Part shown: one piece after another, positions 53,865 to 54,883 of the stretch
Layout of the letters: each line of letters begins with the position of its first letter
Numbering within the stretch: position 1 is the stretch's first letter
Origin: Alicyclobacillus sacchari
GTDB taxonomy: Bacteria > Bacillota > Bacilli > Alicyclobacillales > Alicyclobacillaceae
Length of the DNA stretch: 64,000 bases
NCBI RefSeq assembly: GCF_004366795.1
Contig: NZ_SORF01000001.1
Coordinates: 372,001-436,000, forward strand
Direction: 5' to 3'
Notes under the pieces: model-generated
The model's database searches: none
What the model was told of the DNA's origin: nothing
Seen by the model: the letters and a program-made list of their open reading frames with translations, nothing else
Program-made: the position numbers and the translations under genes

Positions 53865-53892
53865 TTGACACTCACCACACGTGTGATAAACT
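53865..53892 (+). promoter_or_regulatory. Promoter of the radical SAM gene
   Basis: A perfect -35 TTGACA (53865-53870), 16 bases, then TAAACT (53887-53892) preceded by TGA, an extended -10. Transcription would begin near 53899, inside the LexA box. Confidence 0.6.
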
Positions 53893-53898
53893 CACAAC

Positions 53899-53912
53899 AG
53901 AACATATGTTCG
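53899..53912. promoter_or_regulatory. LexA/DinR box over the transcription start
   Basis: AGAACATATGTTCG matches the Gram-positive SOS box CGAAC-N4-GTTCG at 9 of 10 fixed positions, with the palindromic core GAACATATGTTC intact and the common ATAT centre. It sits immediately after the -10 box of the promoter, the expected repressor position. Confidence 0.75.
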
Positions 53913-53938
53913 AACATTGGGTGAAAGGGGGGTACGTC

Positions 53939-54883
53939 GTGTTGGATGTCCCACAATACCACGACATACCTGTCAAATTGGCGGCTAACCAAGTGCACAC
54001 GCAGAGCATGCCGTTCTCTTGGTCGCTCAATCCTTACCGGGGCTGCGCGCACGGTTGCGCGTTTTGCTACGCGCGTTCGACCCATGCATTTCTCGGTTTC
54101 GCGGCAGATGACTCATTTCGCAAACGTATCATGGTCAAAGCAGAAGCGCCTGAGGCCTTGGAGCGGCAGCTAGAAGCCAAACTGCGGGCCTGCGGCGGCA
54201 ACCGCGAACGCTTGTCTCAGTCGTTCGGCATACTGGCGATCGGCACTGCGACAGACCCATATCAATCCATTGAGGCGAAGCGGAAGATCACGAGGAGATG
54301 CCTCGACATTCTTGCGCATTACCAAATTCGGACGACCATCACGACGAGATCGCCATTGGTTTTACGAGATGTGGACGTTTTGCGGCGAATGCGGTTGGAG
54401 TCCATTCAATTGAGCATTCATACCCTGGACGGACGCATTTGGAGAGCATTTGAACCCGCTACACCCGCTCCCAAAACGCGGCTTGCCACTTTGCGCACGC
54501 TCGCGGAACAGGGCTTGCCTGTCGGCGTGTTCCTTGCACCCATCCTGCCATATATCAACGACGATGAGGCCCAGATGTACAGCGTGATCGAAGAAGCGGC
54601 CGCGCACGGGGCACAGTTTGTCATGCCCTCCACACTACGGCTTACACCGGAAGTCAAGCCCTGGTTTTTGGCGGCCATCCGGCACGAGTACCCGCATCTG
54701 CTGGAGAGGTACGAACAATTGTACAAAACCCCCTACGCGCCCTCGTGGTATCGACGCCAGTTGACCGAGAAGGCTGCCGCCATGGTGCGCCGCTTGGGCA
54801 TGAACACCCAACCTGCACGGCGCCCGCAATCGGTCAACATGGCCTCTCAGCCGCAGAGTAGGCAGCTTACCTTGCCGATTTGA
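53939..54883 (+). CDS. Radical SAM protein, SplB/Rv2578c-like, probable SOS-regulated
   Basis: 314-residue radical SAM protein. The iron-sulfur cysteines are C36, C40 and C43 (GCAHGCAFCYAR, a CxxxCxxC motif), and the frame continues through TITTRSPLVLRDVDVLRRM and QLSIHTLD, typical of the group related to spore photoproduct lyase. Reaction unknown. The GTG at 53939 is chosen because AAAGGGGGG lies six bases upstream; an ATG at 53906 falls inside the LexA operator, downstream of the predicted transcription start, with no ribosome-binding site. A LexA box suggests a DNA-damage role, which is inference. Convergent with thiF; its start region is divergent from nadC. Confidence 0.83.
   Translation: MLDVPQYHDIPVKLAANQVHTQSMPFSWSLNPYRGCAHGCAFCYARSTHAFLGFAADDSFRKRIMVKAEAPEALERQLEAKLRACGGNRERLSQSFGILAIGTATDPYQSIEAKRKITRRCLDILAHYQIRTTITTRSPLVLRDVDVLRRMRLESIQLSIHTLDGRIWRAFEPATPAPKTRLATLRTLAEQGLPVGVFLAPILPYINDDEAQMYSVIEEAAAHGAQFVMPSTLRLTPEVKPWFLAAIRHEYPHLLERYEQLYKTPYAPSWYRRQLTEKAAAMVRRLGMNTQPARRPQSVNMASQPQSRQLTLPI

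Follow-up and report, generated by a model that had tools for sequence, protein, structure and literature searches.

A radical SAM gene of Alicyclobacillus sacchari with a conserved LexA box and a predicted sliding-clamp-binding C-terminus

Radical S-adenosylmethionine (SAM) proteins of the SplB type (COG1533) have already been placed under SOS control. Passages of one report (PMC8565304) describe SplB as SOS regulated in several species, from sources that include Cirz 2006 on P. aeruginosa, a study of Verrucomicrobia and a third study, and give the same regulation as a prediction in Bacteroidetes, while passages of a second (PMC7739468) place a radical SAM protein in the core SOS regulon of Gram-positive bacteria and likewise in Balneolaeota. 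Portions of two further papers include the radical SAM gene vnz_31145 among the LexA targets of Streptomyces venezuelae (PMC9380542) and report that radical SAM genes of the SplB-like kind share operons with an ImuB-C domain (PMC3765255). As far as these portions of text go, the SOS-controlled radical SAM proteins are noted in several bacteria without a demonstrated function. The present analysis concerns a radical SAM gene with an SOS (LexA) box in a 64,000-nucleotide stretch of Alicyclobacillus sacchari (contig NZ_SORF01000001.1, positions 372,001 to 436,000; hereafter the window), for which a preliminary description had proposed SOS control. Such control has been published before for radical SAM proteins of COG1533, possibly of the same branch as the Bacilli group, and is not a first. 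What is new here is the clamp-binding C-terminus predicted for the orthologues of this gene and its proteobacterial relatives. Titles and abstract openings of the open-access literature yielded no work linking radical SAM proteins with clamp binding, and a link between Rv2578c and LexA was likewise not found in the open-access literature.

The gene and its control region are set out in Table 1. The preliminary description had seen an SOS box directly behind a TTGACA promoter, and this was borne out: the promoter-like site, with its -35 at 53865-53870 and its -10 at 53887-53892, has ten of twelve matches (one such site found, against 0.7 expected in shuffles), and the core of the box is a perfect 12-bp palindrome, GAACATATGTTC (53900-53911), which begins 7 bp past the -10. 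The ATG at 53906, at which the mechanically called open reading frame (ORF) begins, was rejected as the true start and is probably unused, because it lies inside the LexA box and GTG 53939 stands behind a strong ribosome-binding site. A second palindrome, ATGTTCGAACAT (53906-53917), overlaps the right half of the box; by eye it has no counterpart in the upstream regions of the orthologues compared. Within the window, the 14-mer at up to one mismatch has seven matches against 3.4 expected and is not special; conservation among orthologues was tested because the in-window pattern is no rarer than chance. The significance of the box thus comes from its position and its conservation, and not from rarity within the window.

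Table 1. Features of the radical SAM locus, with positions counted in the window
Feature	Coordinates	Strand	Basis
Sigma-A type promoter, TTGACA/16-bp spacer/TAAACT, with TG preceding the -10	53865..53892	+	promoter scan
LexA (SOS) box AGAACATATGTTCG, at the expected start of transcription, which it overlaps	53899..53912	.	sequence and orthologue conservation
Ribosome-binding site AAAGGGGGG	53924..53932	+	read from the sequence
Radical SAM gene, 314 aa, GTG start	53939..54883	+	PF04055; NF038135 and NF033668 below cut-off; orthologues
CxxxCxxC for a [4Fe-4S] cluster, residues 36-43 (from GTG 53939)	54044..54067	+	Cys36, Cys40 and Cys43 invariant in 54/54 orthologues
GTATDPYQ, residues 102-109, conserved	54242..54265	+	profile alignment; Thr103 in 54/54 orthologues
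Predicted motif for sliding-clamp binding, QLTLPI (residues 309-314; tail unconserved)	54863..54880	+	54/55 orthologues

Orthologues were found in 32 of 41 family genomes (E <1e-85; the other nine have none), and a further 22 came from other Bacilli (E <1e-76, among 299 sampled genomes of the class), giving a set of 54 that includes the window's own gene. The strand-corrected stretch from -200 to +45 was then searched for exact GAACN4GTTC, with L108 and L182 of genome G202, where the ORF is short, excluded from the count and two fragment matches (G197, G198) left out. The exact box was present upstream of 31/32 family orthologues and 8/22 of those from other Bacilli, that is 39 of 54 in total, while 11 of the remaining 15 had only a site with one mismatch and four had no site at all. 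Five of the 11 one-mismatch sites end in GTTTG, like the lexA box of the window's own genome, CGAACAAACGTTTG; this genome encodes a lexA above the family cut-off and carries the site CGAACAAGTGTTTG upstream of recA. Leaving the window's own gene aside, 30 of 31 family orthologues, at 44-78% protein identity, have the exact box, against none of 25 paralogues (five with a one-mismatch site), which were hand-picked from lower-scoring rows of the class-genome search and not drawn at random. Thus the notion that the palindrome arose by chance and that the gene stands outside SOS control, which could appeal to the frequency of such sites within the window alone, is in practice refuted, and the box that the preliminary description had expected upstream of orthologues is indeed found there.

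Among 30 family loci read for a -10, 29 have the box and 26 of these 29 also have a -10-like hexamer, which in 20 of the 26 ends 7-11 bp ahead of the box. With this spacing the box sits on the start point, as had been proposed for the window. Across 15 genomes of the genus GAACRTAYGTTC occurs 80 times against 9 for the reversed pattern, and the two are equal (4 vs 4) in the window's own genome. In a phylum sample of 299 genomes, 12 other genomes had a relative with an E value no higher than 1e-35; four of the 12, all of one genus, carry the exact box. Locus L069 has two boxes, GAACATATGTTC and GAACACACGTTC, on either side of the promoter TATAAT, and at G202:C14 (L108, L182) the orthologue ORF is shortened to 156 aa with the exact box kept.

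LexA motifs differ between bacterial groups, the alphaproteobacterial repeat being GTTCN7GTTC and the gammaproteobacterial motif CTGTN8ACAG. For more distant relatives, 16 of 73 plasmid-collection records were taken, among the matches listed, and ten alphaproteobacterial loci in named records of this collection were searched over a stretch of at most 1.5 kb ahead of the match. The repeat GTTCN7GTTC precedes the gene in nine of these ten loci, which hold two close-relative pairs with identical sites (Azospirillum, Paracoccus), the exception being Pseudorhodobacter; in the same orientation it does not occur in 13,500 bases lying farther downstream in these loci. In three Paracoccus records the repeat starts 27 bp ahead of the only available start codon, and in Methylobacterium it lies about 400 bp ahead of the farthest start and is hence doubtful. 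The relative in Aeromonas has CTGTATATATAAACAG (CTGTN8ACAG), starting 28 bp before the farthest start, and in the Streptomyces relative the distance from an exact GAACATGTGTTC to the farthest start is 57 bp. SOS-type boxes therefore accompany the gene though the LexA motif changes with the bacterial group. Taken with the conservation in Bacilli, the sequences strongly support the LexA control that the preliminary description had put forward, predicting it across genera.

Hexapeptide variants of the clamp-binding motif are known, such as QLSLPL in Hda and QLVLGL in DinB, and by these generally known forms the C-terminal QLTLPI would be a peptide of a beta-clamp client. The bacterial clamp-binding consensus appears as QL(S/D)LF in the relevant text of PMC6204406. 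C-termini were scored by the pattern Q[LMI]x[LFM]x(0-1)[LFIMVW] within the last 12 residues. It was written after the first C-termini had been viewed and before the sets of paralogues, window ORFs and proteobacterial loci were tested; L144-L146, which have no box within one mismatch and no clamp motif, and of which L144 has a frame that ends early, were left out of these counts. Orthologues match in 54 of 55 cases, the sole miss being the shortened ORF of G202 (L108/L182), as do 16 of 20 far relatives and all 11 proteobacterial loci, six of which are also among the 20 far relatives. The exact QLSLF was found in five orthologues and in two Paracoccus records. In the paralogue set four of 26 match, three of them (L183-L185) lying near the main branch on the tree; L191 (QLGFL), counted as a match, is probably one by chance. 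Among the 239 ends of window ORFs of at least 100 codons, a single one fits the pattern, that of the radical SAM gene itself.

Over 54 aligned rows the Gln column of the motif has an entropy of 0.00 bits and the next position 0.38, whereas the columns ahead of the motif reach 3.0-4.1 bits (positions -22 to -2) and 2.2 bits (position -1). A conserved motif after 22 unconserved positions is built like a short, tethered binding peptide. The structure model has a predicted local distance difference test (pLDDT) score <50 at residues 295-314, but also at 1-66, so that the flexibility of the tail is not settled by it. Two loci, L139 and L140, were excluded from one of the alignments (A2). When the last 15 residues were omitted for tree building, 50 rows from Bacilli, other Bacillota, Actinomycetota and Proteobacteria formed one group, all of them motif-bearing, with a support of 94 in the Shimodaira-Hasegawa-like approximate likelihood ratio test (SH-aLRT, quick method). 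The motif as a label on this tree needed three changes, against 17.8 in shuffles.

The assignment to the radical SAM superfamily, which the preliminary description had made, noting the CxxxCxxC motif, was confirmed by PF04055 (60.7 bits against a gathering threshold of 29.5; E 2.6e-16). Its nearest family models are NF038135 (Rv2578c), which scores best, at 231.7 bits over residues 6-288, but far under the curated cut-off of 430, and NF033668 (PA0069), at 214.8 bits against 360. With both scores under their cut-offs the protein stands beside these two families and not inside them and the Bacilli proteins form a branch of their own on the tree. Likenesses extend to the C-terminus: on the side of the Rv2578c family, relatives in Streptomyces and Nonomuraea have the clamp-type ends QLTLL and QLALV, and on that of PA0069 the proteobacterial relatives, one of them annotated as PA0069 family, combine proteobacterial LexA motifs with ends such as QLSLF, QLSLL and QLRLF. 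A search of solved structures by sequence gave no significant match for the single protein (best E 0.75), nor did a 36-row profile, in which spore photoproduct lyase came up at E 0.1. PADLOC returned no match for the radical SAM protein, and in PHROGs the sole strong match was a family of unknown function, beside a weak match to 'DNA repair photolyase'.

Taken together, we consider it likely, from sequence comparison, that the gene belongs, standing alone, to the SOS regulon and that its product is a radical SAM enzyme, induced by SOS and tethered to the beta clamp, that acts on DNA. As judged from the box, lexA and recA, LexA bound to the box at the transcription start would block RNA polymerase, and DNA damage would activate RecA, lead to self-cleavage of LexA and allow the radical SAM gene to be expressed. 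By virtue of its clamp-binding motif the C-terminal tail would then recruit the enzyme to the clamp (DnaN) at gaps or stalled forks, as in SOS polymerases, and there 5'-deoxyadenosyl-radical chemistry may act on a DNA lesion or base. Given the predicted SOS control and clamp-docking tag, damaged DNA at replication forks is probably what the enzyme acts on directly. The preliminary description, partly supported overall, had also proposed a DNA-damage function, perhaps repair of a UV or alkylation lesion. The function in general is supported by the clamp-binding motif, which that description had not seen, whereas nothing singles out UV or alkylation lesions.

The UV proposal has its closest counterpart in spore photoproduct lyase, for which the protein might be a vegetative stand-in, reversing thymine lesions caused by UV, be it the spore photoproduct or a different dimer. 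This lyase, itself an enzyme of DNA repair, was the nearest solved fold to the predicted structure (VIA-align on Foldseek candidates), and a lyase over the TIGR04070 cut-off was found in none of 15 genomes of Alicyclobacillus, a spore-forming genus, against 21 of 41 sampled class genomes. Identity with the lyase itself was rejected, the protein scoring 20.2 bits on TIGR04070, whose cut-off is 400. In the lyase (PDB 4fhc etc.) Cys140 is the hydrogen donor, and hhalign, at 22% identity and with a gap just before the motif, places the invariant Thr103 of the radical SAM protein there, which argues against the same hydrogen-return scheme and against the stand-in role. Relatives occur in alphaproteobacteria, which to our knowledge form no spores of that kind, and this argues against the spore photoproduct as substrate; moreover, three genomes (G052, G059, G060) carry both genes, which are thus not simply exchangeable. 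Ten spore photoproduct lyases examined had neither an exact SOS box upstream nor a clamp motif in their last 20 residues. We consider a role as such a stand-in unlikely.

The SOS translesion polymerases offer another comparison. Y-family polymerases dock on the clamp, and with DinB, UmuC and ImuB, as they are generally known, the radical SAM gene would share LexA control and a short clamp-binding peptide; unlike them it encodes a radical SAM domain and not a polymerase. The product might accordingly assist SOS mutagenesis: sitting on the clamp, it would modify DNA or a polymerase so as to enable translesion synthesis without lesion reversal. In keeping with this, the genome also has a Y-family polymerase-like gene (L023, 396-1613, minus strand; PF00817, 1.5e-5) with a box of the same type, AGAACGTATGTTCT (1627-1638), upstream, and SplB-like genes are described in ImuB-C operons in part of the text of PMC3765255. 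Against it, the ORF downstream in the window lies on the opposite strand, the neighbours of orthologues mostly differ between genera, and no polymerase was recognised among recurring neighbours (single neighbours were not identified). We regard this accessory role as rather unlikely. Modification of RNA or protein, with the tail binding a partner other than the clamp, might be entertained since radical SAM folds serve many substrates and the fold list also holds lipoyl synthase and MiaB; it is very unlikely, given that the motif fits the clamp consensus, including exact QLSLF, in both Bacillota and Proteobacteria, and that SOS-type boxes track the gene across differing LexA motifs.

The exception to the variable neighbourhood is uvrB, which lies directly downstream of the radical SAM gene in L045 (after 2478; Pfam UvrB_inter) and in L044 (after 1100; by similarity to L045), with an SOS-like site between the two genes, GAACAATTGTTC in L045 and GAACAATGGTTC in L044; this arrangement fits a repair role. 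Two more GAACATATGTTC sites occur in the window's own genome (L134, 1778-1789, and L024, 2020-2031), one of them close to a YolD-like ORF (PF08863) and a 188-aa ORF without a Pfam match on a contig of 4.7 kb, the other just ahead of a 127-aa ORF.

For the likely reading of a clamp-tethered, SOS-induced enzyme, the tail predicts a partner (DnaN), a place (forks and gaps) and a separation-of-function mutant, in which the last six residues are deleted. Whether the whole COG1533 branch, that is the Rv2578c and PA0069 relatives together with the Bacilli group, represents a radical SAM repair enzyme that SOS induces in several bacterial groups and that, docked on the clamp, removes or converts a DNA lesion at blocked forks by radical chemistry is an evenly balanced question. 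If true, radical chemistry would join the clamp-directed activities, and a lesion that requires such chemistry would still be there to find.
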